Shown one piece after another: positions 11,786 to 27,784 of a stretch of 64,000 bases of DNA (its first letter is position 1; each line of letters begins with the position of its first letter). The stretch is from Rhizobium vallis (GTDB lineage Bacteria > Pseudomonadota > Alphaproteobacteria > Rhizobiales > Rhizobiaceae). Below the pieces are notes generated by a model. It saw only the letters and a list, made by a program, of their open reading frames with translations, was not told the origin of the DNA and did not search any database. The position numbers and the translations under genes were made by a program. The stretch spans positions 1 through 64,000 of the forward strand of contig NZ_ML133693.1 of NCBI RefSeq assembly GCF_003985155.1. Direction: 5' to 3'.

Positions 11786-11896
11786 CTGCATCAGCCTCCG
11801 CGATGCCAATCTCCTGCCTTGACTGCTGCCGATTCTCAAGGGCCGAAAAATGCTTTCATCGGGATGCCGGACAGTTTTCGCCAGGCCGGCCGGACC

Positions 11897-13004: not shown

Positions 13005-13787
13005 TCAGGACGGTTCGGTCACGAGACGGGGGACGGCGGCAACAAGCGCACGGGCGGCATCGGATTGCGGCGCGGCAACGACGGATGCCGCAGGACCGGT
13101 TTCCACGATCCGCCCGCCATCCATGACGGCGATGCGGTGGGAGACGGCGCGGACCACGGCAAGATCGTGCGAAATGAAGAGGCAAGCGATACCCATTTCC
13201 CTTTGCAGGTCGACCAGAAGCTCGAGAATCCTGCCGCGCACGGTGACGTCGAGTGCAGACACCGCTTCGTCGAGCACCAGCAACGAGGGCCGCGTCGCTA
13301 TCGCCCGGGCAATCGCCACGCGCTGGCGCTGGCCGCCGGAAAGCGATCTTACAGGGCGAAAGGCATAATCGGCGGGCAGGCCGACGCGTTCGAGAAGCAT
13401 CGCGATCTCGCTGGCGCGCCGGTCCCGTGGGACGACGTCATGGATGCGCAGCGGATCGTCGAGCACAGTATCCACGGCTGCCAGCGGATTGAAGGCGGCA
13501 AGCGGGTCCTGGAACACCATCTGCATACGCGCCCGCTTGCGGCGAAGCGCGGCACCTTTCAAGGCGAGCCAATCCTCCCCCTCGAAGCCGATCGCACCAG
13601 TATCGGCGGCAAGCAGCCGCAGCAGGACGCGCGACAGCGTCGATTTTCCGCTGCCGGAGGCGCCGACGAGACCGAGGGTTTCCCCGGCTGCGATCGTCAG
13701 CGAAACATTGTCGAGGGCGGCAATCCGGCGGCCGGAGGAGGAAAAACCTTTCGACAGGTTCTCGATGGAAAGCAGCACATCGCTCAT
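13005..13787 (-). CDS. ABC transporter ATPase, DppF/OppF type
   Basis: A 260-residue nucleotide-binding protein: Walker A GASGSGKST (residues 42-50), signature SLSGGQRQRVAIARAI, Walker B LLVLDEAVSALDV, and a H-loop in LFISHDLAVV. It is the second of two ATPases of a peptide/nickel/opine (PepT) type importer; such transporters use two different ATPase subunits. It lacks the long C-terminal oligopeptide cysteine domain, being shorter than typical OppF (about 330). The start overlaps the other ATPase by 4 nt (ATGA). Confidence 0.92.
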   Translation of the reverse strand: MSDVLLSIENLSKGFSSSGRRIAALDNVSLTIAAGETLGLVGASGSGKSTLSRVLLRLLAADTGAIGFEGEDWLALKGAALRRKRARMQMVFQDPLAAFNPLAAVDTVLDDPLRIHDVVPRDRRASEIAMLLERVGLPADYAFRPVRSLSGGQRQRVAIARAIATRPSLLVLDEAVSALDVTVRGRILELLVDLQREMGIACLFISHDLAVVRAVSHRIAVMDGGRIVETGPAASVVAAPQSDAARALVAAVPRLVTEPS

Positions 13788-14569
13788 GACGCCGCCTCCG
13801 CAACCAGCGGCGGCGTCGCAAGATCGCGATGGCTGGCGATGAGCGCGGCAGTATAGTCGTTTTCCGGGGCCGAAATCACCGAACGGACAGGCCCGGCCTC
13901 GACCAGCCTCGAATTTTGGAAGACGGCGATGCGATCGACGAAGCCGGAAGCGAGCGCGATGTCGTGGGTGATGAAGAGCAGCGTCGTGCCGTCCTCGCGC
14001 ACCAGCCCGTCGAGCAGGCGGACGATCTCTGCCTGGACCACGACGTCGAGCGCGCTCGTCGCCTCGTCGGCGATCAGCAGCGCCGGCTTTGCGGCGATGG
14101 CCGCCGCGATCGCCACGCGCTGGCGCTGGCCGCCGGAAAGCTGATGGAAAAAAGCCCGCATCGCCTTGTCAGGCTGCGGCATTCGCACCCGCCCGAGCAA
14201 CTCCTCAGCTCTGGCATAGGCCTGCTTCCAGCTGAGGCCGAGATGGCGCCTGGCGCCTTCGGCAATCTGCTCGCCGATTGTCAGCACGGGATTGAGGCTG
14301 GAGCCCGGGTCCTGGAAGACGAAGCCGAAATCGCGGCCGGGGCGGGGCGGATGACCAAGCCCGGGCCAGAGGATCTCGCCACTGACCTTTGCTCTCTCCG
14401 GCAGCAAGCCGGCGAGCGCACGGGCGAGCGTGCTCTTGCCGGAACCGCTTTCGCCGATGATCGCCAGCCTTTCACCGGTGAGGATATCGAGATCGATGCA
14501 GTCGAGTGCGCCAGCGCCGCGCCCGTAGGTGACCGAAAGCTGCTTCAGGCTGCAGAAGATGCCGCTCAT
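13784..14569 (-). CDS. ABC transporter ATPase, DppD/OppD type
   Basis: A 261-residue ATPase with Walker A GESGSGKST (residues 39-47), signature QLSGGQRQRVAIAAAI, and Walker B LLIADEATSALDV. It pairs with the ATPase encoded directly after it. Like its partner it is shorter than classical DppD (about 330 residues) and seems to lack the C-terminal extension. Both ends overlap neighbours by 4 nt, showing tight translational coupling within the minus-strand operon 18036-11897. Confidence 0.92.
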   Translation of the reverse strand: MSGIFCSLKQLSVTYGRGAGALDCIDLDILTGERLAIIGESGSGKSTLARALAGLLPERAKVSGEILWPGLGHPPRPGRDFGFVFQDPGSSLNPVLTIGEQIAEGARRHLGLSWKQAYARAEELLGRVRMPQPDKAMRAFFHQLSGGQRQRVAIAAAIAAKPALLIADEATSALDVVVQAEIVRLLDGLVREDGTTLLFITHDIALASGFVDRIAVFQNSRLVEAGPVRSVISAPENDYTAALIASHRDLATPPLVAEAAS

Positions 14570-15399
14570 GCTGCCCTCGCGCCGTCATTGCCGAGCGCCT
14601 TGCCGAGCCCTTCGCTGAAGAGATGGACGCCGAGCACGGTCACGGCGAGCGCTGCGCCCGGAATGATGGAGAGATAGGATGCCGAACGCAGCACGCTGCG
14701 GCCCTCGGCGATCATCGAACCCCAGGTGGCGATATTGGGGTTGCCGAGACCGAGGAAGGAGAGCGCCGCCTCGGTGAGGATCGCGCCCGCGACGATGGTG
14801 GCCGAGAGCGCCAGCACCGGCGGAAGCGCGTTCGGCAGGATTTCCCGGAAAGCGATCTCAGCCGGATGCATGCCGATCACCCTTGCCGAGGCGACGTAAT
14901 CCTGCTCGCGGATCGCCAGCACTTGTGCTCTCGTCAGCCGCGCCGGGTCGGCCCAGGCGCCGAGCGCGATGGCAAGAACAATGATAGGCGTCGAGACCCC
15001 GATGGTGCTGACGAAGGCAAGGGCGAGCAGAAAGCCCGGCACGATCTGGAAGGCATCGACCACGCGCATCAGCGCCTCGTCGACGATCCCGCCGGCAAAA
15101 CCGGCCGCCATGCCGACGCAGACGCCGAGGATCATGGCCGAAAACGCCGCTGCGAGACCGACGACAAGCGAGGTTCGCGCGCCATAGAGCAGGCCCGCCA
15201 GGACGTCGCGTCCGAGGCGGTCGGTACCCAGCGGGAAAGCCCGATCGGTAAACGGCGCCAGCAGCGCGCGGCCGGCAATTCTCAGCGGATCGCCTGGCGA
15301 GATGATAGAGGCGAGCAGGCCGGCCGACAGCAGGACGAGAAGGATCGCAAGTCCTGCCAGACCTTCCGGCCTGCGGAGGAGGCGCCGCGGCCAGCTCAT
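14566..15399 (-). CDS. ABC transporter permease, DppC/OppC type
   Basis: A 277-residue inner-membrane permease. After a first membrane helix (AILLVLLSAGLLASII) comes the periplasmic motif FPLGTDRLGRDVLAGLLYGA, diagnostic for DppC-type permeases, and the ATPase-docking loop YVASARVIGMHPAEIAFRE. Five or six helices are predicted. It pairs with the upstream DppB-type permease and overlaps it by 4 nt. Confidence 0.92.
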   Translation of the reverse strand: MSWPRRLLRRPEGLAGLAILLVLLSAGLLASIISPGDPLRIAGRALLAPFTDRAFPLGTDRLGRDVLAGLLYGARTSLVVGLAAAFSAMILGVCVGMAAGFAGGIVDEALMRVVDAFQIVPGFLLALAFVSTIGVSTPIIVLAIALGAWADPARLTRAQVLAIREQDYVASARVIGMHPAEIAFREILPNALPPVLALSATIVAGAILTEAALSFLGLGNPNIATWGSMIAEGRSVLRSASYLSIIPGAALAVTVLGVHLFSEGLGKALGNDGARAA

Positions 15400-16385
15400 G
15401 CGCCGCCCTCCGATGCGCCTATGCGCGGGTCGAGCGCAGCATAGACGAGATCGACGAGGAAATTGACCGAAATGACGAGGGCGGCGCTGGTGATAATGAT
15501 GCCCATCAGCAGCGGGGCATCACGGCCGTTGACCGCTTCCTGCGCCAGCCGCCCGAAACCGGGAATCGCAAAGACACTCTCGATCACCACGCTGCCGCCG
15601 AGCATCGCTGCCGATTGCAGCCCGAGCATGGTGACGAGCGGCAGCAGCGCATTGCGCGCGACGTGGCGCAGCACGATGCGGCTGCGCGATAGGCCTTTGG
15701 CACGGGCGAAGAGCACGAAATCGAGTTTCCACGCCTCGGCCATGCTGCTGCGCATCACCCGCAGGAACAAGGCGAGATAGATCAGGGCGAGCGCACCGAC
15801 CGGCAGGACGAGATGATCCGCAATGTCGAGCGCACGCGCAAATCCCGTCTTGCCGGAGGCGATCGTCTCGATGCCGGCAATCGGCAGCCAGCGCAGCTTC
15901 ACCGAAAAGGCGATGCTGAGGACAAGCCCGAGCCAGAAGCTCGGAATGGCGTAGACGATCAACGAGCCGATCGACAGCAACCGGTCACGCAGGCTTCCCG
16001 GCCGCGCGCCGGCGAGGATGCCGAGCGCCGAACCGAAACCGAAGGAGAGTGCTGTGGCGCTGCCCATCAGGAGCAGCGTATTCGGCAGGCGTTCTGCGAT
16101 GAGCGCTCCGACCGGCCTGTTGAAAGCAACAGACCAGCCGAGATCGAGCCGCACCAGCGAAGAGAGATAGAGCCAGAGGCGGGCGAGCACGGACCGGTCG
16201 AGGCCGTAGCTTTCGCGCAGCGACTGCCTGAGTGCCGCATCGCCGCCGCCGATAGAGCCGAGATAGGCATCGACGGCATCGCCCGAAGCGGATTCGAGCA
16301 GGAAAAAGGTGAAGATCACCACGATCAGCAGCACCGGTATGCTGCTGATCGCCCTGCGCCTCAGGAGGATGATGGCTCGTTTCAC
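15396..16385 (-). CDS. ABC transporter permease, DppB/OppB type
   Basis: A 329-residue inner-membrane permease with the DppB layout: TM1 near residues 9-28 (SSIPVLLIVVIFTFFLLES), a large periplasmic region with RESYGLDRSVLARLW, and the docking loop LFARAKGLSRSRIVLRH. The frame extends upstream, but that part overlaps no family region and runs into the binding-protein gene, so the GTG at 16385 is chosen; its ribosome site is weak. The binding-protein stop lies 40 nt upstream. Confidence 0.88.
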   Translation of the reverse strand: MKRAIILLRRRAISSIPVLLIVVIFTFFLLESASGDAVDAYLGSIGGGDAALRQSLRESYGLDRSVLARLWLYLSSLVRLDLGWSVAFNRPVGALIAERLPNTLLLMGSATALSFGFGSALGILAGARPGSLRDRLLSIGSLIVYAIPSFWLGLVLSIAFSVKLRWLPIAGIETIASGKTGFARALDIADHLVLPVGALALIYLALFLRVMRSSMAEAWKLDFVLFARAKGLSRSRIVLRHVARNALLPLVTMLGLQSAAMLGGSVVIESVFAIPGFGRLAQEAVNGRDAPLLMGIIITSAALVISVNFLVDLVYAALDPRIGASEGGA

Positions 16386-16425
16386 GCCGGACAGGGCCTC
16401 TGGAAGGGAATTGCCGCCGATCCTA

Positions 16426-18036
16426 TCACGATTGCAGCGCGGTATCGCCCCAGTTCGAAACGGCCCAGCGGGGGTTGTCGGAGACGTTGAGCACGGTGTC
16501 GCGCGCAACGGTGATGAAGCCCCATTCCGCGACGTTGATCAGCGGCAGATCAGCGACGACAAGCTGCTGGAACTTGCGGTAGAGATCGGTGCGCGCCGCC
16601 GTATCGATGGTTTCGGAAGCCTGCTGGATGATCTTGTCGAGCTCCGGATTGGCATAGCCGCCCTGGTTGGAGAAGGGCACACCGTCAGGCGTGCCGGACC
16701 GGACGAGAATGGTGGTCGAGATTGCCGGATCGCCGCGGAAAACAGGCGGGCCGACGGCGAGGTCGAAATCGTGGTCGGTATAAACCGCCTTCAGATGCGC
16801 GGCCGCATCGGCATTGACGATCTCAGCATTGATGCCGATCTTGGCCAGCGCCTGGCGAAGGTAATCGCCGAACTGACGGGTCTCGTTGAAATAGGGTGCA
16901 GGACGGAGCTTCAGCGTGAAGCGGTTGCCGTCCGCTCCCTTGATGTATCCGGCCTTGTCGAGGATGTCGTTTGCGGCCACTGGGTCGAAATTATAGGTCG
17001 CGACCTCAGAGGTATAGAACTCCGGCGCATTCTTCGGCACCGGGCCGGTCGAGGCAGCGGCGTAGCCCAGGAAAATCGTGTCGACCACGAATTTCTTGTC
17101 GATGGCCTGGGCGATCGCCTGGCGGACTCTCAGATCGGCGAGTTCCTTGCGGCGGTGATTGATCTCGACGACGAGCTGGTAGGTCAAAGCCTCGTAGCCC
17201 TTCGAGATCACCTTGATGCCGTTGACCTTGGAGATGCGGTCGAGATCGGCGAGCGGCACCGCCGAGAAGGCGGCGAGCTGAATCTCTTCGGCTTCAAGTG
17301 CCGCACCCGCCGACTCACGGTCCGGCAGCACGCGGAAGACGATCTCGTCGAGTTTCGGCTGGTCCTTGTCCCAGTAATTCTCGTTGCGCGTCAGCCGGTA
17401 ATATTCGCCGGGCTTGTATTCGGCGAACTTGAACGGGCCGGTACCAACAAGCGCGTTGTTGGCCGGATTGGTGGCGATATCGGTCCCGTCGAAAATATGC
17501 TTGGCGACGACGCTTGTCACGACAGGCAGCGCATTGCGGATCAGCTGGAACGGCGTCGGCTTGGAGAAGCGGAAGATCGCGGTGTAATCATCAGGCGTAT
17601 CGACGGCTTCGAGATTGGCGAAGACCAGGCGACCGAGATTCTGCAGCGGCTTCCAGATGTTGAGGGCCGAGAAGGCGACATCGACCGAGGTGAACGGCTT
17701 GCCGTCGTGCCAGGTAACGCCATCGCGCAGCTTGAAGGTGACGGAAAGACCGTCGGCCGAACCCTCCCAGGAGGTGGCAAGCCGCGGCGCAAGCCCGTCC
17801 TTGCCGTCGAACGAGGCTTCGGCCAGCGGCTCGATCACCTTGCTCGCGACGAAGAACACGCCGTTCGAGGCGACGATCGCAGGATTGAGGTTCTTCGGCT
17901 CGGAATCGGCTGCTACGATCAGCCTGCCGCCGCTCGGCGCCGTCTGAGCGAACGCCTGCCGGGCGAGCGCTGTCGAGGCAAGGAGCAGGGCAGTGCCCTT
18001 CATCAGCGTGCGCCGCGAGATAGATGGTACGGTCAT
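16426..18036 (-). CDS. ABC transporter substrate-binding protein, family 5 (peptide/opine type)
   Basis: A 536-residue SBP_bac_5 protein, the usual size. The N-terminus carries a twin-arginine signal, SRRTLMKG (residues 7-14), followed by a hydrophobic stretch ending in ARQAFAQ, so it is probably exported folded by Tat. The mature part shows family hallmarks such as VTFKLRDGVTWHDGKPFT. Ligands of this family range from peptides to nickel, opines and glycosides; here the ligand is unknown. It is the first gene of the minus-strand operon and has a plausible promoter at 18093-18120. Confidence 0.92.
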   Translation of the reverse strand: MTVPSISRRTLMKGTALLLASTALARQAFAQTAPSGGRLIVAADSEPKNLNPAIVASNGVFFVASKVIEPLAEASFDGKDGLAPRLATSWEGSADGLSVTFKLRDGVTWHDGKPFTSVDVAFSALNIWKPLQNLGRLVFANLEAVDTPDDYTAIFRFSKPTPFQLIRNALPVVTSVVAKHIFDGTDIATNPANNALVGTGPFKFAEYKPGEYYRLTRNENYWDKDQPKLDEIVFRVLPDRESAGAALEAEEIQLAAFSAVPLADLDRISKVNGIKVISKGYEALTYQLVVEINHRRKELADLRVRQAIAQAIDKKFVVDTIFLGYAAASTGPVPKNAPEFYTSEVATYNFDPVAANDILDKAGYIKGADGNRFTLKLRPAPYFNETRQFGDYLRQALAKIGINAEIVNADAAAHLKAVYTDHDFDLAVGPPVFRGDPAISTTILVRSGTPDGVPFSNQGGYANPELDKIIQQASETIDTAARTDLYRKFQQLVVADLPLINVAEWGFITVARDTVLNVSDNPRWAVSNWGDTALQS

Positions 18037-18160: not shown

Positions 18161-19558
18161 TCAACCGTTGGCGGCTTGGCGCGCGGGTTCGGCGAAGAGA
18201 TTGCGATAACTGGCGCCCGGATGCGGCGCGACAAGCCGCGGTCCCGCTCCCCCGAGCTTTTCGCGTAGTGTGCCCTTGGCATATTCGGTCTTGTAGACGC
18301 CGCGCTTCTGCAGCTCCGGCACCAGCAGATCGACGGCATCCTCGAAACTCTCTGGCGTCACGGCATAGGCGAGGTTGAAGCCGTCAACGTCGGTGTCCTC
18401 GACCCATTCCTGCATCAGGTCGGCGACCGTCTGCGGCGATCCGACGAAGACAGGGCCGAAACCGCCGACGCCGACCCACTCGGCCATTTCGCGCACCGTC
18501 CACTCCTTGTTGGGATCGATCGTGGTGAAAGTCTCGACGGCCGATTGCACTGCGTTGGTGTGGCGGTGCCGGAGCACCTCGTCCGGCCCGAACTGGCCGA
18601 AATCGATGCCGGTCCAGCCTGAGATCAGCGTCAGCGCGCCCTCGAAGGAGGCGTATTTGCGGTATTCGTTGAATTTCCGCTGCGCTTCCGCGTCCGTCTC
18701 GCCGAGAACCACCGTCTGCAGGTTGAAGGCGAGGATTTCGCGCGGGTTGCGGCCGACGCGTTCGGCCGCCTCGCGGACATTGGCGACGTAGCGCTTCAGC
18801 ACGGGTTTCGAGGGCGATGCGACGAAGATGCATTCGGCATGGGCGCCGGCGAAATCCTTGCCGCGGCTGGAGGCGCCGGCCTGATAGAGCACTGGGGTGC
18901 GCTGCGGCGAGGGCTCGCTCAAGTGAATGCCGGGCACGTTGAAATGCTTGCCGGCATGGCGGATCGGGTGGACCTTGCCGGGATGGGTGAAGATGCCGGT
19001 TTCCCGGTCGCGCACGACCGCGTCATCCTCCCAGCTACCCTCCCAGAGCTTGTAGCAGACCTCGAGATATTCCTCGGCGAGATCATAGCGATCGTCATGT
19101 TTCGTCTGCGCGGGCTTGCCGATATTGAGTGCGCCGCTGTTGAGATAGGAGGTCACGATATTCCAGCCGACGCGGCCTTTGGTCAGATGGTCGAGCGTCG
19201 AGATGCGGCGGGCGAAAGTGTAAGGATGCTCGAAGGAAAGCGATGCCGTCAGGCCGAAGCCGAGATGCTCGGTCTCGTAGGACATGGTCGGGATGAGCTG
19301 CAGCGGATCGTTGACCGGCACCTGTGCGGAATGGCGCAGTGCGGCATCGACATTGCCGTTCAGCACGTCGTAGACGCCGAGCACGTCAGCGATGAACAGG
19401 CCGTCGAACTTGCCGCGCTCCAGCGTCTTTGCCAGATGCACCCAGTAGTCGAGATCCTTGTAGGTCCAGGATTTGTCGCGCGGATGGCGCCAGAGTCCCG
19501 GCGACTGGTGTCCGACGCAATTCATGTCGAAGGCGTTCAGCCTGATTTCGCGGGTCAT
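18161..19558 (-). CDS. LLM-class flavin-dependent monooxygenase (NtaA/SnaA/DszA family)
   Basis: A 465-residue member of the bacterial luciferase-like group that includes nitrilotriacetate monooxygenase NtaA and sulfone monooxygenase DszA. Typical segments are GKFDGLFIADVLGVYD (residues 50-65), FGLTASLSFEHPYTFARR, and KGRVGWNIVTSYLNS. Such enzymes use reduced FMN from a separate reductase to cleave C-N or C-S bonds; no reductase gene is present in this window. The ATG follows GGAAGAAAGAC. It lies 17 nt behind the CUT2 permease gene, so transporter and enzyme are co-expressed. Confidence 0.92.
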   Translation of the reverse strand: MTREIRLNAFDMNCVGHQSPGLWRHPRDKSWTYKDLDYWVHLAKTLERGKFDGLFIADVLGVYDVLNGNVDAALRHSAQVPVNDPLQLIPTMSYETEHLGFGLTASLSFEHPYTFARRISTLDHLTKGRVGWNIVTSYLNSGALNIGKPAQTKHDDRYDLAEEYLEVCYKLWEGSWEDDAVVRDRETGIFTHPGKVHPIRHAGKHFNVPGIHLSEPSPQRTPVLYQAGASSRGKDFAGAHAECIFVASPSKPVLKRYVANVREAAERVGRNPREILAFNLQTVVLGETDAEAQRKFNEYRKYASFEGALTLISGWTGIDFGQFGPDEVLRHRHTNAVQSAVETFTTIDPNKEWTVREMAEWVGVGGFGPVFVGSPQTVADLMQEWVEDTDVDGFNLAYAVTPESFEDAVDLLVPELQKRGVYKTEYAKGTLREKLGGAGPRLVAPHPGASYRNLFAEPARQAANG

Positions 19559-19575
19559 GTCTTTCTTCCTTGGAA

Positions 19576-20637
19576 TTAGGGATTGCTGCGGCCGAGGCCG
19601 TAGGTCAGCGCCAGTGCTCCGACGAGCACGGCGCCCTTGACGAAATCCTGGGTGTAGTAGGGGGCATTCAGCATGGTGAGCCCGTTCAAGAGCACGCCGA
19701 CAAAGACGGCACCGGCAACGGTGCCGAGCACGTTGGGACGCCTGAGATTGAGGACGGCGAAGCCGATCAATGCGGCCGCAACCGAATCCATCAGCAGCGA
19801 ACCGCCGGAGGAGACGTCGCCACGCCCGACGCGGGCGGCAATCACGATGCCACCGAGCGATGCCAGCGTGCCTGACAGGACATAGGCGAGCGTCTTCAAC
19901 CTGACGGTCGAGGCACCGGCGAGCCGGGTGGCGACCTCGTTGCCGCCGGTCGCAAACAGCAGCCGGCCGATGCGGGTGCGCTCGGTGAGGATGAAAAGAA
20001 AAACGGCGACAGCGACCATCAGCACCACGGAGACGGGCAGGGTGCCGAGGATGCTGTAGCGGCCGATCAGCAGGAAAGCCGGGTCGTAGGCGCCGGTCGC
20101 CTTCGAACCGTCAGGCAAGGTGAGACCCGCCGAGATCGAGCGGCCGGCTGTGGGTATCAGCTGCAGACCGGAAAGCAGGAACATCATCGCCAGTGTCGCC
20201 AGGAGATCCGGAACCTTCAGGCGCACGATCAGGAAGGCATTGACGAGCCCGATCAAAGCGCCGAAGGCGAGCACCAGCGGCACCGTCGCATAGGCATCGA
20301 AGCCCCAGACGATCATCGCATAACTCGCCGCCATCACGCTCGATGCGGCGACCGCGCCAATCGACAGGTCGAAACCGCCGACGGCCAGCGTGACGGTGAC
20401 GCCGGCGCCGAGGATGGCGACGACCGAGACCGCCTGCAGGATGCTCATCAGATTGGCAATATTGATGAAGGCGGGCTCGGCAATGGTGAAACCGACGACG
20501 AGAGCCGCAAGCAGGATGAACACCGCACCCGCCCGAAGGAAGGCTCCAAGGGCGGCGAGGCGGCTGCCGCCCGATTGCGGCAATGTCTTTGGCCGGACGC
20601 TTGCCTGTGGAAGAGTGTTGTCGTCAATCGTGGTCAT
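19576..20637 (-). CDS. ABC transporter permease, RbsC-like (CUT2)
   Basis: A 353-residue inner-membrane permease with the eight-to-ten helix pattern of ribose/xylose/autoinducer-2 type channels. Characteristic stretches are VGGFDLSIGAVAASSVMAAS and, near the end, RRPNVLGTVAGAVFVGVLLNG. It is a single permease that presumably works as a homodimer. It overlaps the ATPase gene by 4 nt. The binding protein is encoded divergently at 22352. Confidence 0.93.
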   Translation of the reverse strand: MTTIDDNTLPQASVRPKTLPQSGGSRLAALGAFLRAGAVFILLAALVVGFTIAEPAFINIANLMSILQAVSVVAILGAGVTVTLAVGGFDLSIGAVAASSVMAASYAMIVWGFDAYATVPLVLAFGALIGLVNAFLIVRLKVPDLLATLAMMFLLSGLQLIPTAGRSISAGLTLPDGSKATGAYDPAFLLIGRYSILGTLPVSVVLMVAVAVFLFILTERTRIGRLLFATGGNEVATRLAGASTVRLKTLAYVLSGTLASLGGIVIAARVGRGDVSSGGSLLMDSVAAALIGFAVLNLRRPNVLGTVAGAVFVGVLLNGLTMLNAPYYTQDFVKGAVLVGALALTYGLGRSNP

Positions 20638-22118
20638 GCGGATATTCCCTGGATTGCGGAGGCAAGCGCGGATCCGTCCGCCGCGGGCCTCAACACGTGG
20701 TGGTCGATGACGAGGATGCGGTCGGCCACTTCATAGGCCTCTTCCGGATCGGAGGTCGCGATCAGCGTCGCCCGGTCGGTGTGGGCGCGGATTGCCCGGA
20801 TGATGTCGTGACGGGCGCCGACATCGACGCCCTGGAAGGGTTCGTCGAGCAGCAGCAGCCGGCTCGGCTCCGCCTCCCATCGGGCGATCACCGCCTTCTG
20901 CTGGTTGCCGCCGGAGAGCGACCAGACCGAGGCGAGCGGACCGGTGGCCTTGATGCCGAGACGGGCGATTGCCTGTTCGGCCTCGCGTCGTTCTCGCCCG
21001 CCGACGAGGAAACCACTGGGATACCATTTGCCAAGATGCGGCAGGCTGATCGTCGCCGACAGCGAATGGCCGGGCCATGCCGGCGGCATCAGCGAGGAAC
21101 GATGACGGTCCTCGGCCGCCATGGCGACACCTGCCGCAATCGCTTCGGCCGCACTTTTCGGCCGGTAAGGCCGGCCGTCGAGAAACATCGCGCCACCGCT
21201 TAGCGCGGTCACGCCGAAGATCGCCTGGAGCAACCGGCTCTTGCCGGCGCCGAGCACGCCTGTTACCGCAACCACCTCACCCTCGTGCAGCGACAGATCG
21301 AAGGGCTCAGCTTGAGGGAGCAGGCTGATATCGCGCATCTCGAAAATCGCCGGCCCGGTCGCCGGCCGCGCATCCGGCCGGGCGGCATCCAGTCTGCGGC
21401 CGATCATCGTCTCGATGGCGCTCGAAAAATCGATCGGCCGCGAGAAGGTGCCGACCACGCGGCCGCCGCGCATGACGAGCGCCCGGTCGGCGATCGCTTC
21501 AAGATCGGCCGTGCGGTGCGAGATATAAAGGATCGCCAGGCCGCGCTTGCGCAGGCTCAGCAGAATATCGAAAAGGCGGCGGCTTTCCTCTCCGGAAAGG
21601 CTCGCCGTCGGCTCGTCGAGGATGAGGAGATCGGCGCGGTTGGCAAGCGCGCGGGCAATCGCCACCAATTGTCGGTCAGCGCTGGTGAGTTCGCCGAAAT
21701 CACGGTCGAGCGGCAGGCCGAAGCCGGCGGCGTCGAGCATTGCCTGCGCGGCGCGGCGGATGCCGGCGCGCGAGACAAAAAAGGGCGTGGCGCGATCGGC
21801 GAAGCGGTTGAGCAACAGGGCGTCGGCAACACTCAGGCCGGCCGCACCGACGAGATCCGTCGACTGATGCACGGTGACGACGCCGGCCCTTGCCGCCTCG
21901 GCCGGGCTGCGCGGCGCAAAGGGGCGGCCACCCAGTTGGATCGCGCCGCCGTCGGCCGGAAGCACCCCGGAAAGGATTTTGACCAGCGTCGATTTGCCTG
22001 CGCCGTTCGCTCCCATCAGCGCCACGATCTCGCCGCGCTCGATCGAAAGATCAGCACCGGCCAGCGCCCGCGTCGACCCGAAACTGCGGGTGATGTTGTC
22101 AATGTGAAGAAGCGGCAT
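20634..22118 (-). CDS. ABC transporter tandem ATPase, RbsA/MglA-like
   Basis: A 494-residue protein with two fused nucleotide-binding domains, as in CUT2 systems. Domain 1 has Walker A GANGAGKST (residues 36-44) and DLLILDEPTASLSG; domain 2 has GVLGAGKSR, signature LSGGNQQKAVIARW and LLLLDEPFQGVDVG. The first domain's signature is weak (ELTSADRQLVAIARAL), which is common in this family. It energises the RbsC-like permease that follows. Confidence 0.93.
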   Translation of the reverse strand: MPLLHIDNITRSFGSTRALAGADLSIERGEIVALMGANGAGKSTLVKILSGVLPADGGAIQLGGRPFAPRSPAEAARAGVVTVHQSTDLVGAAGLSVADALLLNRFADRATPFFVSRAGIRRAAQAMLDAAGFGLPLDRDFGELTSADRQLVAIARALANRADLLILDEPTASLSGEESRRLFDILLSLRKRGLAILYISHRTADLEAIADRALVMRGGRVVGTFSRPIDFSSAIETMIGRRLDAARPDARPATGPAIFEMRDISLLPQAEPFDLSLHEGEVVAVTGVLGAGKSRLLQAIFGVTALSGGAMFLDGRPYRPKSAAEAIAAGVAMAAEDRHRSSLMPPAWPGHSLSATISLPHLGKWYPSGFLVGGRERREAEQAIARLGIKATGPLASVWSLSGGNQQKAVIARWEAEPSRLLLLDEPFQGVDVGARHDIIRAIRAHTDRATLIATSDPEEAYEVADRILVIDHHVLRPAADGSALASAIQGISA

Positions 22119-22351
22119 CGATCATGTCCGGGACTGCATTCGAAGCCGGAGTGTGCCCTGCCCGGGCGGTCGAATTCCAGGCACGCCTTTCCTTCGGGAA
22201 CTGCCCTCGGGAAACAAAGAATCTCCCGCGGTCCGTAAATTCGGATCATTTACCCTACTAAAAACATAGAGATTATATCTAATAATTCGACGCGTCGCGA
22301 GGGCTCTCAACCTGTCAGACGACGCTTCCGATTGCTAGAAGGAACGCGACG

Positions 22352-23398
22352 ATGAAATCCCTCGAACGGCTCGCACTGTCTGCCGCCGTCATTCCGTTCA
22401 TTTTCATTCAAGGCGCAAAAGCCGACGGTCTGTCCGGCGCTCCGGCCCCCTTCGATAAGGGCGGCGTCAAGGTTGCGCTGATCAGCTACATCTCGGCCGG
22501 CGATTTCTTCCAGGCCTACCAGGCGGGCGCCGAAGCCCAGGCCAAGGCACTGGATATCGACCTGCGCGTCTTCCCAGGACGGCAGGACGCCGCCGAGCAG
22601 CGCGAGCAGATCCTGCAGGCGATCAATCTCGGCGTCTCCGGCATCGTCATCGACCACGGCCTGCCGGAATCGCTCGGCGACGTCGTGCAGCAGGCACTCG
22701 ACAAGGGCATCAAGGTCGTCGCCTTCGACGTCAACCTCAACAACCCGAAGATCCCGCAAGTCGAGCAGAGCGACCACGAGCTTGCTTCGCTCGCTCTCGA
22801 GCAGGTGGTGAAGGACAACGGCAAGGACTTCAAAGCCGGTTATGTCTATGTCGCGGGCTTTGCGCCGCTCGACCGCCGCAACGAGGTCTGGGACAAGTTC
22901 AAGTCGGAGAATAAGGGCGTCACCGAAAAGGCCCGTTTCGGCAATGTCAGCGACACGACGGCGACCTCGACCGCCGACCAGGCAAAGGCCGCGCTGACCG
23001 CCAATCCCGACATATCAGTGGTTTTCGCCCCCTATGACGAATTCGCTCGCGGCGTGAAGCTCGCCGCCAACGACCTCGGCATCGCCAAAAAGCTCAAGAT
23101 CTATTCGGCCGACGTCTCCACGGCCGATATCCAGGAAATCACCGAGGAAGGCAGCCCATGGGTTGCGACCGTGGCGACCAATCCTGCTGTCGTCGGCGCC
23201 GTCTCTATCCGTGCCGCAGCGCTCGAAATCGCCGGCCAGACGGTTCCCCATCAGATTACCGTGAAGCCGACGCTTCTGACGCAGGAGAGCCTGCGCGCAG
23301 CCGGCGTCAAGACGATCGAGGACCTGGCGGCGAAGATCCCGGCCTTCAGCACCAGCGATGCGGCGACCGCGAGCTGGATCCCGGACAAGCTGTTCTAA
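22352..23398 (+). CDS. Sugar-type periplasmic substrate-binding protein (CUT2)
   Basis: A 348-residue periplasmic binding protein with a signal peptide (residues 1-24, ending GAKA before DGLSG). The body has the type 1 fold: VALISYISAGDFFQAYQAGA, a central GIVIDHGLPESL, and VVFAPYDEFARGVKLA. AAGGAACGCGACG precedes the ATG. It is divergent from the ATPase/permease/monooxygenase operon and should serve that transporter. The neighbours suggest that the ligand carries sulfur, possibly a sulfonated or thio-carbohydrate; that is inference. A terminator-like hairpin follows the stop. Confidence 0.9.
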   Translation: MKSLERLALSAAVIPFIFIQGAKADGLSGAPAPFDKGGVKVALISYISAGDFFQAYQAGAEAQAKALDIDLRVFPGRQDAAEQREQILQAINLGVSGIVIDHGLPESLGDVVQQALDKGIKVVAFDVNLNNPKIPQVEQSDHELASLALEQVVKDNGKDFKAGYVYVAGFAPLDRRNEVWDKFKSENKGVTEKARFGNVSDTTATSTADQAKAALTANPDISVVFAPYDEFARGVKLAANDLGIAKKLKIYSADVSTADIQEITEEGSPWVATVATNPAVVGAVSIRAAALEIAGQTVPHQITVKPTLLTQESLRAAGVKTIEDLAAKIPAFSTSDAATASWIPDKLF

Positions 23399-23417
23399 GG
23401 CTTTTCACCTCGGCCCT

Positions 23418-23456
23418 TCCGGCGGGAGCGTGCGGCTTCCGCCGGAGCATCTTTTT
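23418..23456 (+). terminator. Terminator or attenuator after the CUT2 binding-protein gene
   Basis: An 8-bp perfect stem (TCCGGCGG / CCGCCGGA) with a 13-nt loop, then GCATC and five T residues (23452-23456). It lies 20 nt after the stop and ends 21 nt before the next start, so it should let only part of transcription enter the acyl-CoA-dehydrogenase-like gene. Confidence 0.65.
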
Positions 23457-23477
23457 GGAGAAATTGGAGTCCCGCCC

Positions 23478-24686
23478 ATGAGCCAGTCCAATGTCGTCTT
23501 CGCGGTGAGCCGCAATCCGACGCGAGAAGACCTCTTTGCCCATGCCAAGGAGATATCGGCTGACCTTTCCCGGCGCGCGGCAGACCTCGACCGCGAAGGT
23601 CGACCGCCGCTCGCCGAAATCGTCAAGCTGAAGAATGCCGGGCTGCTCAATGCGCTGCATCCCACCGAGATCGGCGGCGGTGGCCTCGACTGGGTCGACG
23701 GACTGAGGCTGGTGCGCATCCTCGCCCGCGGCGAAAGCTCGATCGGCCAGCTGCTCGGCTACCACTATGTCAACAGCCAGTACATCTATTGGGCCCTCGA
23801 TGCCGCACGTGCCCATGCGCTGGGCAGCGATACCGTCGCCAGGAACCTCTATTGGGGTGCGGCAGTCAATCCGCGCGATCCGGGGCTGGTGCTCACCCGC
23901 CGCGGCAACGGCTATGTGCTGAACGGGCGCAAGTCCTTCTCCACCGCGGCGCGGGTTTCCGACTATATCAATGCCAATGCGACGCTCGACGACAAGATCG
24001 CCGGTTTCGCCGTTCCGACCAATCGCCCGGGCTACGTCGCCAATGACGATTGGGACAATATCGGCCAGCGCCTCTCCGACAGCGGGAGCGTCGAATTTCA
24101 CGACTTTCCCGTCTACGAGGAGGATTTCGTCGGTGCACCTGCTGCGCCCGACGCAGCGCCGCCGGTATTGTCGACCTTCAACACGCCATTCATCCAGCTG
24201 GTCTTCGTCAATTTCTATCTCGGCACCGCCGAAGGCGCGCTGCAGGCAGCCGTCGATTACGTCAGAACCACCACCCGGCCGTGGCTCACGTCAGGTGTCG
24301 AGCGGGCGGCCGACGATCCCTATATTCTCGAACGCGTCGGCGAATTCACCGCCGCGCTGAAAGCCTCGGCAGCCCTTGCCGACAATGCGGCATCGGCCGT
24401 GCAGGCGGGGCTTGACCGCGGGCGTGACGTGACGGCGCGCGAGCGCGGCGAGGCGGCGGCGGAAGCCTATGCCGCCAAGGTGCACTCCACCCATGTCTCA
24501 CTCGACATCACCTCCCGCGTGTTCGAGCTGACGGGGGCGCGCTCGACAGCCGACAAATACCGTTTCGACCGTTTCTGGCGCAATGTCCGCACCCATACCC
24601 TGCACGATCCGGTCTTCTACAAGGCTAAGGAAGTCGGCGAATTCGTGCTGAACGACAAGATACCGGAGGTCAGCCTCTATAGCTGA
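23478..24686 (+). CDS. Acyl-CoA dehydrogenase-fold flavin monooxygenase (DszC/SfnC-like)
   Basis: A 402-residue protein with the acyl-CoA dehydrogenase fold but the DszC-type C-terminal signature RTHTLHDPVFYK, seen in flavin monooxygenases acting on sulfur compounds. The catalytic Glu of true acyl-CoA dehydrogenases is not evident. YVLNGRKSFSTAARVSDY marks the flavin/substrate middle domain. The ATG at 23478 follows TTGGAG; the frame is open earlier but that part overlaps the binding protein. With the luciferase-like enzymes nearby, a role in releasing sulfite from an organosulfur compound is likely. Confidence 0.8.
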   Translation: MSQSNVVFAVSRNPTREDLFAHAKEISADLSRRAADLDREGRPPLAEIVKLKNAGLLNALHPTEIGGGGLDWVDGLRLVRILARGESSIGQLLGYHYVNSQYIYWALDAARAHALGSDTVARNLYWGAAVNPRDPGLVLTRRGNGYVLNGRKSFSTAARVSDYINANATLDDKIAGFAVPTNRPGYVANDDWDNIGQRLSDSGSVEFHDFPVYEEDFVGAPAAPDAAPPVLSTFNTPFIQLVFVNFYLGTAEGALQAAVDYVRTTTRPWLTSGVERAADDPYILERVGEFTAALKASAALADNAASAVQAGLDRGRDVTARERGEAAAEAYAAKVHSTHVSLDITSRVFELTGARSTADKYRFDRFWRNVRTHTLHDPVFYKAKEVGEFVLNDKIPEVSLYS

Positions 24687-24760
24687 GGCCGACGATCATC
24701 ACCGAAAGCAAAACTCCACCGCCCGCGGTAGGTCAGTTTGTCGACAACCTCTCGTCCGTC

Positions 24761-24783
24761 ATGCTCGGCCTTGTGCCGAGCAT
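24761..24783. repeat. Rhizobial palindromic intergenic repeat, copy A
   Basis: ATGCTCGGC / GCCGAGCAT form a 9-bp stem with loop CTTGT. It is one of two inverted copies of a 28-nt unit between two convergent genes. Such palindromes occur widely between rhizobial genes. Confidence 0.7.
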
Positions 24784-24846
24784 CTAACCACGGCAATTTC
24801 CTGGCGACAAACTATTATTTTCAGATATTTAATTGGGCCTGCACAG

Positions 24847-24869
24847 ATCCTCGGCACAAGGCCGAGGAT
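24847..24869. repeat. Rhizobial palindromic intergenic repeat, copy B (inverted)
   Basis: ATCCTCGGC / GCCGAGGAT form a 9-bp stem with loop ACAAG, the reverse complement of copy A apart from a paired G-C to C-G change that keeps the stem. It lies 64 nt beyond copy A and 46 nt before the stop of the convergent gene. Confidence 0.7.
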
Positions 24870-24915
24870 GACGTTGCGGGTTTTGTCGTGGTTTATCAGA
24901 GAAGCGGCAGAAATT

Positions 24916-26133
24916 TCAGAGCGCGCCGTTCTTGGGCGGCGTTACGCCGTTCAGATGGTAGTTGCCGACCACGTGGTATTTCCAGCGAACGGGATCGTGG
25001 AGCGTATGGGTGCGGGCATTGCGCCAATGGCGGTCGAGATTGAGCCCGACCTGCACCGACGAGGTTCCGGCAAGCTCGAATAGCGTATTCGCCGCTTCGA
25101 TCGCCACCTCGGTCGTCAGCACTTTGGCGGCGGCGACCGCAAGCGTGGCCGCGATCACCTTTTCGTCCGTCGTTTCGACCTGCGCAGCATCGACCTTGTG
25201 ACCGGCGCGCTCCACGAGAGCGGTTGCGGCTTCCAGCCGGATGGCGATCTGTCCAACCTTGGCAATGGTCAGCGGGTCGTCAGACGCGCGGTCGAGGCCA
25301 CTGTCCATCCAGGGGCGCGATTTCGTCCTGACGAACTCAAGCGTTTCGGCAAAGGCCGCCCTGGCGATGCCGAGATCGACGCCAGCATGGATGATCTGGC
25401 CGACGGAGCCGATCGTCGTCGGCCGCTCGAAACCCTTGTGGTGGAAGACCACGGAATCGGCGCTGACATAGACGTTGTCGAGGATCGTCGTGCCGCTGCC
25501 GGTGGTGCGCTGGCCGAAGCCGTCCCAATCGTCGACGATCTCGATGCCTTCGGTGCCCTTCGGCACGAAGGCCATGGTCAGCCGGTCCTCCGGATCGAGC
25601 GCGAAGATGGTGACCCAGTCGGCGAAGAGCACGCCTGTGGAATAGAATTTGCGACCGTTGATCCGGTAGCCCGGCCCGTCGCGGGTGATGCGGGTGTTGT
25701 AGTGGCCGACCGTCTTCGTGCCGCGTTCGGAAAGCGCATTGCCGAAGCGGTCGCCGGCCAGCACCCGGCCGAAGAAATAGCGTTGCTGCTCCTCGCTGCC
25801 ATCGGTCCTCAGCGCTTCGAGAATATAGAAATGGTTCTGCGGGATCTGGCCGATCGAACCATCCGCCTCGGCGAGGATCGCGGTAATCTCGGCAAGCACG
25901 GCGTTCGAAACGTCGAGCCCGCCATATTGCGAGGGCACGGTGATCGCTAGAAGGCCGGACTGTGCGAGAAGATCGAGTTCGGCGAAAGGCAGGATCCGGT
26001 CGGCGTCGCGCTCAGCGGCGCGCGCGGCGAATTGCGCTGCCAGTCTGCGGGCGGTTGCGATCGCCTCCTCGTCGCTGCCGATACGGGCGGCCACGGGCCG
26101 AATCTGATCTGCTTGCCTGAGCACGGTATTCAT
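24916..26133 (-). CDS. SfnB-family sulfur acquisition oxidoreductase
   Basis: A 405-residue acyl-CoA-dehydrogenase-fold flavoprotein matching the SfnB sulfur acquisition family: QNHFYILEALRTDGSEEQQ (near residues 99-117), ALSERGTKTVGHYNT, GYRINGRKFYSTGVLFADW, and the C-terminal RTHTLHDPVRWKYH. Family members are induced by sulfate starvation and take part in dimethyl sulfone or sulfonate use. ATG 26133 is supported by GGAG 7 nt upstream; an upstream in-frame start lacks one. It is a paralogue of the gene at 23478 and is divergent from the monooxygenase gene at 26456. Confidence 0.85.
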   Translation of the reverse strand: MNTVLRQADQIRPVAARIGSDEEAIATARRLAAQFAARAAERDADRILPFAELDLLAQSGLLAITVPSQYGGLDVSNAVLAEITAILAEADGSIGQIPQNHFYILEALRTDGSEEQQRYFFGRVLAGDRFGNALSERGTKTVGHYNTRITRDGPGYRINGRKFYSTGVLFADWVTIFALDPEDRLTMAFVPKGTEGIEIVDDWDGFGQRTTGSGTTILDNVYVSADSVVFHHKGFERPTTIGSVGQIIHAGVDLGIARAAFAETLEFVRTKSRPWMDSGLDRASDDPLTIAKVGQIAIRLEAATALVERAGHKVDAAQVETTDEKVIAATLAVAAAKVLTTEVAIEAANTLFELAGTSSVQVGLNLDRHWRNARTHTLHDPVRWKYHVVGNYHLNGVTPPKNGAL

Positions 26134-26455
26134 CGTTGTCTCCACTTCTGACGATCCTATCGGTGAAAGAAATCGAGCGCCGAGATAAGAGCACAAATTC
26201 TATAGATGTCATCGAAAACGAAAAGTGTTTGCTTATCAGCCTCCAACGATCGCGATTAGGCTTTCGATCTGGCGTTTGTGCGAAAATGCGGGTCGGAAAA
26301 GCAATGAAATTCCTGCCGGAAATTACGATAGCCGGCCTCGATTTGATTTCACCGACCTCCTACGTAACCGATATCCGATGCGTCGCCGCAGCGGCTCCAG
26401 ACAGAACGCCCAATGTGGGGCAGGCGGCCACCTAGCCCGATCCATGAGGAAAATC
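26134..26455. other. Divergent intergenic region of sulfur-related genes
   Basis: About 320 bases between two divergent starts, so promoters for both must lie here. It contains TTCTATAGAT around 26198, similar to ATAGA-type elements at 18096 and 22265. I see no credible small gene; a GTG-started extension of the downstream frame exists but has no family similarity. Confidence 0.45.
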
Positions 26456-27784
26456 ATGACCCGTTCACGGCAGTTGCGCCTCGGCGCCTTCATGCGTCCC
26501 GTCAGCCTGCATACCGGCGCGTGGCGCTATCCCGGTTCCTTCCCCGACGCCAATTTCAATTTTGCCCATCTGAAGTCCTTCGCGCAGGCGCTGGAACGGG
26601 CGAAATTCGACGCCTTCTTCATGGCCGATCACCTGGCCGTGCTCAACATGCCGGTCGAGGCGCTCAGGCGCAGCCACACCGTGACCTCCTTCGAGCCATT
26701 CACGCTGCTCTCCGCACTGGCGGCGGTGACGGAGCGTATCGGCCTCGTCGCCACCGCCTCCACCACCTTCGACGAGCCCTATCACATCGCCCGGCGTTTC
26801 GCTTCGCTCGATCATATCAGCGGCGGCCGCGCCGGCTGGAACATCGTCACGACGTCAAATCCCGACGCCGCGCTCAATTTCGGCCTCGACGAACATGTGG
26901 AACACGGCGAGCGCTACCATCGCGCCAGGGAATTCTACGATGTCGTGACCGGGCTCTGGGACAGCTTTGCCGACGACGCCTTTATCCGCGACCGGGAAAG
27001 CGGCCTGTTCTTCGATCCCGAGAAGATGCATGTGCTTGGTCACAAGGGCGAAGAGCTCAGCGTGCGTGGGCCGCTCAATATCGCCCGCCCGCCGCAGGGC
27101 TGGCCCGTCATCGTCCAGGCCGGTCAGTCCGATCCTGGCCGCCAGCTCGCGGCGGAAACCGCCGAGATGGTCTTCTGTTCCCCGCGCGACCTTGCCGCCG
27201 GCAAGGCGCTCTATGCCGATATCAAGGGCCGCATGGAAGTGATCGGCCGCAACCGCGACCATTTGAAAATCCTGCCCGCCGCCTTCGTCATCGTCGGTGA
27301 TAGCATCGAGGAGGCGCGCGCCAAACGCGCCACGCTCGACAGCCTGGTGCATTACGACAGCGCCATCGCCTCGCTTTCGATCGCGCTCGGTCATGACGCT
27401 TCTGGCTTCGATCCAGACGCCCCGCTGCCGGCCGATATTCCCGATACCAATGCCAGCAAGACAGGCCGGGCGCAGGTGCTGAAGCTTGCAGCCGAGGAGA
27501 ACCTGACCGTGCGCCAGCTCGCACAGCGCTACGGTGGCTATGCCGGCCTCGCCTTCGTCGGCACGCCGGCCAGCATCGCCGACGAAATGGAACGCTGGCT
27601 TGATGAGGAAGGCTCCGACGGCTTCAACGTCGTATTCCCCTATCTGCCGCAGGGTCTAACGGACGTCACCGAACGGCTGGTCCCCGAGCTTCAGCGTCGC
27701 GGCCTGTTCCGCAGCGAATATGAGGGAACGACGCTGCGTGAGCATCTCGGACTTCCGCGGCCGGAGAACCGGTTTTTCGCCTGA
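26456..27784 (+). CDS. LLM-class flavin-dependent monooxygenase (NtaA/DszA family)
   Basis: A 442-residue luciferase-like monooxygenase, second of its type in the window. Recognisable segments: AKFDAFFMADHLAVLNMP, LVATASTTFDEPYHIARRFA, and SGGRAGWNIVTTSNPDAALN. GAGG at 26446-26449 sets the ATG at 26456. It is expected to be cytoplasmic and to need reduced FMN from a partner not found here. It forms a divergent pair with the SfnB-type gene. It differs enough from the enzyme at 18161 that a different substrate is likely. Confidence 0.9.
   Translation: MTRSRQLRLGAFMRPVSLHTGAWRYPGSFPDANFNFAHLKSFAQALERAKFDAFFMADHLAVLNMPVEALRRSHTVTSFEPFTLLSALAAVTERIGLVATASTTFDEPYHIARRFASLDHISGGRAGWNIVTTSNPDAALNFGLDEHVEHGERYHRAREFYDVVTGLWDSFADDAFIRDRESGLFFDPEKMHVLGHKGEELSVRGPLNIARPPQGWPVIVQAGQSDPGRQLAAETAEMVFCSPRDLAAGKALYADIKGRMEVIGRNRDHLKILPAAFVIVGDSIEEARAKRATLDSLVHYDSAIASLSIALGHDASGFDPDAPLPADIPDTNASKTGRAQVLKLAAEENLTVRQLAQRYGGYAGLAFVGTPASIADEMERWLDEEGSDGFNVVFPYLPQGLTDVTERLVPELQRRGLFRSEYEGTTLREHLGLPRPENRFFA

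Follow-up and report, generated by a model that had tools for sequence, protein, structure and literature searches.

We analysed a 64,000-nt stretch of DNA from Rhizobium vallis, a bacterium of soil and root nodules (assembly GCF_003985155.1, contig NZ_ML133693.1, positions 1 to 64,000; genome 7.11 Mb), referred to below as the window, and found a seven-gene cluster that joins a CUT2 importer of the 5-methylthioribose (MTR) type to putative sulfur monooxygenases (Table 1). The cluster probably serves the uptake of MTR, or of a close S-alkyl thio-pentose, and the oxidative release of its sulfur, with the ligand, the reactions, the order of the steps and the induction all predicted. This reading is favoured because the nearest relatives with an assigned ligand are MTR importers, because S-oxygenase genes are linked to the importer, and because its promoter carries an element common to msuE and an SsuD-like gene. 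A preliminary description of the cluster had proposed that a sugar-type importer takes up a sulfur-bearing sugar for desulfurisation, and the same three lines of evidence both support and sharpen that proposal.

The best match of the periplasmic binding protein among solved structures was 4RY8 (phmmer E 4.8e-61), entitled 5-methylthioribose transporter solute binding protein TLET_1677 of Thermotoga lettingae, followed by 5ULB (5.8e-35). Structure comparison with one predicted model of the binding protein (mean pLDDT 75.3) likewise placed 4RY8 first (Z 32.1, root-mean-square deviation 4.3, 314 aligned residues, 34% identity) and 5ULB second (Z 29.0). The permease was 51-59% identical to permeases encoded near mtnK (S-methyl-5-thioribose kinase) and about 27-34% identical to those of a second set of CUT2 genes found at related loci; the ATPase was 41-47% identical to the mtnK-linked ATPases. 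With a Peripla_BP_4 binding protein and a CUT2 permease and ATPase, the importer is not of the SsuA/TauA type and falls outside SsuABC and TauABC. From these comparisons we conclude that, judged by sequence, it is of the MtrB/MtrC/MtrA type and not a generic sugar importer, MTR being its predicted ligand. CUT2 importers are mostly sugar importers, and generic family models scored this one as ribose-type, as they would an ordinary importer of ribose or another sulfur-free pentose with oxygenase genes as chance neighbours. We consider such an arrangement very improbable: solved ribose-type chains matched far more weakly (E about 1e-10 only), the linkage to the oxygenase genes persists where gene order has changed and recurs on a Methylobacterium plasmid, and the element common to msuE is absent from 16 mtnK-linked importer operons.

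MtrACB is described as the probable MTR importer of enterobacteria and Bacillus, with a gene mtrY after mtrB, in PMC3228920. The window's importer resembles it in having a homologous binding protein, a single CUT2 permease and a double ATPase, and in having relatives beside mtnK and mtnA (isomerase), one in Klebsiella at about 30% identity and others in Rhizobiaceae at 51-59%. It differs in that the clade to which it belongs has neither mtnK nor mtnA (76 full-length loci) and carries DszC-like, SfnB and NtaA/DmoA-type enzymes instead, under a promoter element common to sulfur genes.

Comparison of the window clade with the mtnK-linked clade, a third clade and 4RY8 revealed 44 invariant positions in the binding protein, including D126, E138, Q139, D141, A171-D174, R176, D229-F231, D254 and W270. 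Many of these are absent from the ribose protein 4RY0. At 57 pocket-region positions, picked by alignment and from the ligand contacts of ribose-binding proteins and not from coordinates, the window and mtnK-linked clades had the same majority residue at 42, compared with 179 of 307 for residues 37-343 overall. The pocket pattern may point to an MTR-like ligand, possibly one whose S-substituent has changed. The linkage and promoter-element evidence would be the same if the compound imported and desulfurised were another organosulfur molecule (a sulfonated sugar such as sulfoquinovose, a thioglucoside derived from a glucosinolate, or a thioether or sulfone that is not a sugar), and the ligand could have shifted as the clade diverged from the mtnK-linked one and loop 199-203 changed. 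We regard this as unlikely, given the 44 positions invariant across three clades and 4RY8 and the resemblance of the enzymes to thioether and sulfone enzymes; in addition, the neighbouring proteins that were scanned or listed included no glycosidase and no product of a sulfoglycolysis gene, although not every open reading frame was scanned. Sulfo-SMO clusters for sulfoquinovose have a CUT1-type importer and an SmoC-type monooxygenase, whereas the importer in the window is CUT2 and its oxygenases LLM1 and LLM2 are nearest to DmoA and YtnJ/MoxC, respectively; sulfoquinovose was therefore rejected as the first choice. The preliminary description had allowed for a sulfonated or thio-carbohydrate, or for another unusual organosulfur ligand. 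The thio branch is the one we favour, and the sulfonated branch is disfavoured by the same oxygenase affinities.

The distribution of binding-protein relatives was surveyed in 199 genomes of the family, 77 of which had a relative at E <= 1e-50. One group of relatives, at 51-59% identity, has its own CUT2 ATPase and permease and lies next to mtnK and mtnA; examples from Rhizobiaceae and Devosiaceae include Shinella, Sinorhizobium meliloti pSymB, Mariluticola and loci L124-L132, L134, L135, L137 and L167. The Klebsiella relative is also beside both genes. A maximum-likelihood tree of 51 dereplicated binding proteins out of 127 separated the mtnK-linked clade (15 rows, support 100/98), the window clade (25 rows, 99/97) and the third clade (6 rows, 100/100); the joining order of the three was not settled by the tree. 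All 15 rows of the mtnK-linked clade had mtnK within 9 kb and none of the 25 window-clade rows did. Within the same distance, a dszC, sfnB or LLM relative was present in 22 of the 25 window-clade rows, the others being L121, L123 and L170. A further survey covered 120 Rhizobium genomes, counted by hand with at most 17 candidates scored per genome. A window-clade copy (at least 78% identity) was found in 98 and mtnK in 13, with both in 9, and every one of the 13 mtnK genes lay within 3 kb of a binding-protein relative of 56-58% identity.

Partner genes were counted in the 76 full-length loci of the window clade (four shorter loci out of 80 were omitted), using identity thresholds of 65-80% according to the gene and 30% for mtn genes. 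The DszC-like gene was present in 76, sfnB in 72, LLM1 in 64, the permease and the ATPase in 58 each, a second CUT2 set in 44, dppA in 24 and LLM2 in 21; mtnK and mtnA were each found in 0 of 76 at the 30% threshold. The gene arrangement is far from chance, since dszC, sfnB and LLM1 accompany the binding protein in 76, 72 and 64 of these loci. The set stays together despite a changed gene order in L118-L120, L168, L169 and L171, and a Methylobacterium plasmid carries a related partial set with an acyl-CoA-dehydrogenase-type gene, SfnB and LLM genes and a branched-chain-type importer. In the window, the ATPase gene overlaps the permease gene by 4 bp and LLM1 follows after 17 bp, forming a leftward unit; the binding-protein and DszC-like genes, 79 bp apart in the same direction, form a rightward unit. 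Both units have operon-like spacing. The SfnB gene is convergent with the DszC-like gene, and LLM2 is divergent from the SfnB gene. We consider it improbable that the region is a gathering of separate sulfur scavengers, in which MTR would be imported and used through unknown enzymes and the neighbouring oxygenases would have other substrates (dimethyl sulfide, sulfones, or whatever the Dpp-type or second CUT2 importers bring in). Such a gathering would suit the presence of several importers (Dpp-type in the window, second CUT2 in 44 of 76 loci, branched-chain-type in Methylobacterium) and the promiscuity of such monooxygenases that PMC13352529 describes. It fits poorly with the operon spacing of the binding-protein and DszC-like genes and of the ATPase, permease and LLM1 genes, and with the presence of dszC in every full-length locus.

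Several related loci differed from the window in composition. The second CUT2 importer (binding protein, ATPase and two permeases; nearest solved chain 4WT7 of Agrobacterium vitis), as at L141:4490-9113, lies beside the cluster in the 44 loci counted above and was not found in the window's cluster. The third MtrB-like clade (L160-L166, L174, L083 and L133) mostly occurs with a permease about 78-82% identical to that of the window. Ten of its loci share a neighbour gene, which in L174 encodes an LVIVD-repeat (mtrY-like) protein. At L083 and loci like it, a single permease/ATPase pair lies between binding-protein genes of two clades, an arrangement that suggests a common importer. In Agrobacterium leguminum (L174:12572-16955) a third-clade importer has two SfnB genes and one LLM gene in its vicinity, and the sulfur linkage may thus reach the third clade. 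In Mariluticola (L144:722-6142) an MTR importer and mtnKA lie beside genes for a RuBisCO-like protein and transketolase/DXS-type proteins, a neighbourhood that we take to resemble a shunt of the methylthioadenosine-isoprenoid type. A Bradyrhizobium relative (L139, 41% identity) is accompanied by a MocE-type ferredoxin, TIM-barrel enzymes and FAD enzymes, with no mtnK annotated there; judged by such neighbours, the binding-protein family at large may recognise other ligands as well.

The R. vallis genome gave no match to mtnK in a search that matched 13 of 120 genus genomes, and none to mtnA with either a protein query or a family model, the latter being positive in 9 of 14 controls. A model for methylthioadenosine phosphorylase gave one match in the genome, far below the cutoff (100.6 versus 274.85). 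Because mtnK and mtnA matches are absent from the genome, MTR entering this cell has no recognised kinase/isomerase route. All bacterial MTR routes known to us run via MtnK or MtnP, and MtnA. Methylthioadenosine arises in quorum-signal synthesis and in plant ethylene synthesis. It is also a by-product of polyamine synthesis from which MTR derives (PMC3228920), and Escherichia coli, which is without salvage, excretes MTR (PMC3228920 and PMC6302742).

The oxygenases were compared with characterised enzymes. LLM1 was closest to the dimethyl-sulfide monooxygenase DmoA (6AK1; E 4.5e-167, 224 of 412 residues identical, 54%), with a bit score of 559.8 compared with 499.9 for the alkane monooxygenase LadA. 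Eighteen of the 20 DmoA binding residues listed in PMC9259527 are kept in LLM1, the changes being G231S and L367F, and the listed residues Q18 and Y138 are kept in LLM1 and different in LadA; LadA agrees at 10 of the 12 listed positions that lie at or before residue 206. LLM1 differs from DmoA in that its link to dimethyl sulfide is one of sequence, and no reductase of PF01613 or TIGR03566, the two families searched, lies in the window.

The DszC-like enzyme matched DszC (3X0X, 266 bits), the probable monooxygenase 8CDA (255 bits) and the methanesulfinate monooxygenase MsuC (240 bits), and was below the cutoff of the SfnB model TIGR04022 (252.1 versus 430.9). The GYH and RTHxLHDP stretches of DszC are kept in the alignment, and we take their histidines to be catalytic in DszC. 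The SfnB-family protein matched DszC and MsuC about equally. The cluster resembles the DszABC (4S) pathway in having a DszC relative and NtaA/DszA-family enzymes; it differs in that the DszC cutoff was missed and LLM1 is nearest to DmoA and not to DszA (a DszB gene was not searched for).

The preliminary description had noted that the window contains no flavin reductase. This held for the two families searched genome-wide, which gave nine PF01613 and five TIGR03566 matches, none of them in the window; other reductase families were not searched. Elsewhere in the genome SsuD, SfnG and three of the five TIGR03566 (MsuE) matches were above cutoff, and MsuE, SfnG and a second SfnB are encoded in one same-strand gene run (L191). 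Judged by family assignment, the flavin reductase absent from the window is available as MsuE. Since the MsuE, SfnG, second SfnB and SsuD families are present, a predicted route from sulfone through methanesulfinate and methanesulfonate to sulfite is encoded in this genome. In Acinetobacter baylyi, dimethyl sulfide is oxidised to the sulfoxide and sulfone by oxygenases with the acyl-CoA-dehydrogenase fold; enzymes acting after them set free methanesulfinate and, in the end, sulfite, and all depend on a single MsuE (PMC13352529). The R. vallis cluster shares with this route and with the Sfn/Msu route the acyl-CoA-dehydrogenase-fold S-oxygenases, the TIM-barrel enzymes that cleave C-S bonds and the shared MsuE. 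It differs in that its enzymes are tied to an importer of the thio-sugar type, the proposed thioether being a sugar and not a volatile sulfide.

Two other regions of the genome bear on these gene families. On contig C8, which also holds the window, at 310-317 kb (L196:4508-11038), an LLM1-like enzyme (51%) is encoded with MsuE, MetQ- and MetN-type importer genes and two palindromes of the kind described below. CUT2 genes and nearby LLM genes on contig C15 were considered as operons and rejected, as they lie apart or in another layout.

A pathway can be proposed from these assignments. MTR would be taken up by the MtrB/MtrC/MtrA-type importer and, inside the cell, would be neither phosphorylated nor salvaged to methionine. 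Oxidation of the thioether to the sulfoxide and sulfone would fall to the DszC-like enzyme; the DmoA-like LLM1 would then cleave the C-S bond, which would release methanesulfinate (or directly methanethiol) and leave an aldehyde derived from the pentose. SfnB, which is related to MsuC and DszC, together with the SsuD encoded elsewhere in the genome could convert methanesulfinate through methanesulfonate to sulfite, with FMNH2 supplied in trans by the MsuE reductases. More tentatively, with the case for and against close to balance, this might constitute a further fate of MTR besides methionine salvage and aldolase-type shunts, in which MtrB-type import and DszC-like and DmoA-like enzymes would strip the sulfur from MTR (or its S-oxide) under sulfur starvation in rhizobia, most of which are without mtnK.

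The divergent promoter of the cluster contains a conserved TCTACTAAAAACATAGAGATTATATCTAAT-type element; a first pattern recognised it at 78 of 92 loci. Such sites, all of them upstream of window-clade binding-protein genes, were the sole source of a matrix that was then used to scan 478 kb of the R. vallis genome, consisting of the window, 16 sulfur-type or flavin-reductase stretches and 10 control stretches, with the best three sites listed per stretch. Among the sites listed, the one in the window's divergent promoter ranked first at 29.5. Sites upstream of the three msuE genes scored 25.1, 18.2 (the msuE/sfnG run) and 15.3, and those upstream of other genes 22.2 (fatty-acid desaturase), 18.6 (SsuD-like, on C15) and 17.4 (LLM); two control sites reached 17.4 and 17.1. 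Letter shuffles of two msuE upstream regions reached the real score in 3 and 1 of 2000. Upstream regions of msuE homologues in eight other records scored at least 13.5 in five cases and at most 3.5 in three. The desaturase gene (L197:13197-14199) has a strong palindrome 47 bp upstream and no obvious sulfur role.

The consensus is a 17-bp palindrome, YCYAY-N7-RTRGR, with an AT-rich centre. It was written after the matrix matches, so the counts from the same genome are partly circular: it occurred once in the 64-kb window (0.11 expected), 8 times in 225 kb of sulfur-type stretches and once in 189 kb of control, and it lay upstream of all three above-cutoff msuE genes and of the SsuD-like gene. 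In the window clade, 82 of 92 binding-protein genes had the palindrome upstream. It was found upstream of the binding-protein gene in 0 of 13 third-clade cases and in 0 of 20 of the mtnK-linked group (17 with mtnK in the locus); the latter count is no fair measure of the promoter, as the binding-protein gene comes third in its operon there. The fair comparison is with the ATPase gene that heads the operon, and this gave 0 of 16 mtnK-linked importer operons. Other upstream counts were 0 of 25 for dppA, 0 of 25 for LLM2, 6 of 83 for sfnB and 16 of 55 for the binding protein of the second CUT2 importer. The dppA upstream region has a CATAGARATTA stretch that resembles part of the binding-protein element. 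We also considered a CTA-N6-TAG operator in the upstream regions of dppA and of the ATPase and binding-protein genes. This candidate was dropped: the exact pattern occurred only at those two sites, from which it had been written, a reversed-pattern control gave 4 matches, and the CTA half was not kept upstream of dppA in relatives. As regards the palindrome, the results support co-regulation of the cluster with sulfonate and sulfone genes, from which induction by sulfur starvation would be expected.

Several observations weigh against the reading of the cluster as a route for sulfur from MTR. Within the binding protein, loop 199-203 is VSDTT in the window clade versus L/M-DNPI in the mtnK-linked clade; as we take this loop to border the ligand, and it differs between the clades, the S-substituent may differ from that of MTR. 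MtrACB itself is termed probable and not functionally characterised in PMC3228920. A close permease is absent from 18 of the 76 full-length loci, the ATPase from 18 and LLM1 from 12. Among the enzymes, the N-terminal half of LLM1 is equally near LadA (125 of 206 residues identical) and DmoA (128 of 205), and the DszC-like enzyme is far under the cutoff of the DszC model NF043015 (293.7 versus 850). No group C enzyme of A. baylyi oxidised dimethyl sulfide according to PMC13352529, and no methanethiol was obtained from dimethyl sulfide with the DmoA preparations of PMC9259527; direct cleavage of a thioether by LLM1 is disfavoured because of these results. With respect to the promoter element, two control sites outscored one msuE site (17.4 and 17.1 versus 15.3), 10 of the 92 window-clade upstream regions had no palindrome, and the palindrome was present upstream of the ATPase gene in 3 of 7 importer operons that have only the third clade.

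The positions of the cluster's genes and of the promoter element are given in Table 1. All seven genes of the preliminary description were present at or near the positions it gave, with family-model scores that agree with the families it named; the start of the DszC-like gene, the extent of the SfnB gene and the approximate start of LLM2 were refined, and the lengths of the DszC-like and SfnB genes match the R. etli annotation.

Table 1. Genes of the cluster and the promoter element between its two divergent units
Feature	Position	Strand	Evidence
LLM1, NtaA/DmoA-family FMNH2-dependent monooxygenase	18161..19558	(-)	TIGR03860, 577.6 bits (cutoff 279.7)
CUT2 permease, MtrC-like	19576..20637	(-)	Family models and comparison with mtnK-linked permeases
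CUT2 double ATPase, MtrA-like	20634..22118	(-)	Family models and comparison with mtnK-linked ATPases
Palindromic promoter element CCTACTAAAAACATAGA	22254..22270	no strand	Matrix and consensus scans of the divergent promoter (22119-22351)
Periplasmic binding protein, MtrB-like, Peripla_BP_4	22352..23398	(+)	Nearest solved structure 4RY8
DszC/MsuC-like putative flavin monooxygenase, acyl-CoA dehydrogenase fold	23478..24686	(+)	DszC and MsuC matches
SfnB-family sulfur acquisition oxidoreductase	24916..26133	(-)	TIGR04022, 621.5 bits (cutoff 430.9)
LLM2, second NtaA-family monooxygenase, loosely attached to the cluster	~26456..27784	(+)	TIGR03860, 551.6 bits (cutoff 279.7)

The closest relatives at this locus are strains of the Rhizobium leguminosarum group, including R. 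johnstonii 3841, in which the cluster is on plasmid pRL9. A LacI gene at 27858 marks the border of the next cluster, which is CUT1-type. On the other side, at 13005-18036, lie genes for an ABC importer of the Dpp/Gsi type, followed downstream by one for a class V aminotransferase, and this importer adjoins LLM1 in the R. leguminosarum group. Farther out, glycerophosphodiester phosphodiesterase-like genes at 8284-9114 and 10922-11839 flank genes for a LacI regulator and an inositol-phosphatase-like protein. A riboswitch was sought in the divergent leader, and there was no Rfam match at gathering score anywhere in the window.

The cluster combines two known kinds of part, and we did not find this combination described in the literature searched. 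That search, whose coverage excluded most subscription papers, gave, among the papers listed, none joining methylthioribose with an Sfn, Msu or Dsz name, and it found none joining methylthioribose, sulfur source and monooxygenase. If the proposal is correct, the cluster would represent a route of sulfur recovery different from the known methionine salvage pathway, and, being present in most of the Rhizobium genomes sampled, would reveal a means by which root bacteria obtain sulfur from a methylthio group bound to a sugar. A DszC/SfnB/NtaA gene set that is now annotated by family only would thereby gain a substrate, and the promoter element offers a testable handle on the regulation of sulfur scavenging in Rhizobium.

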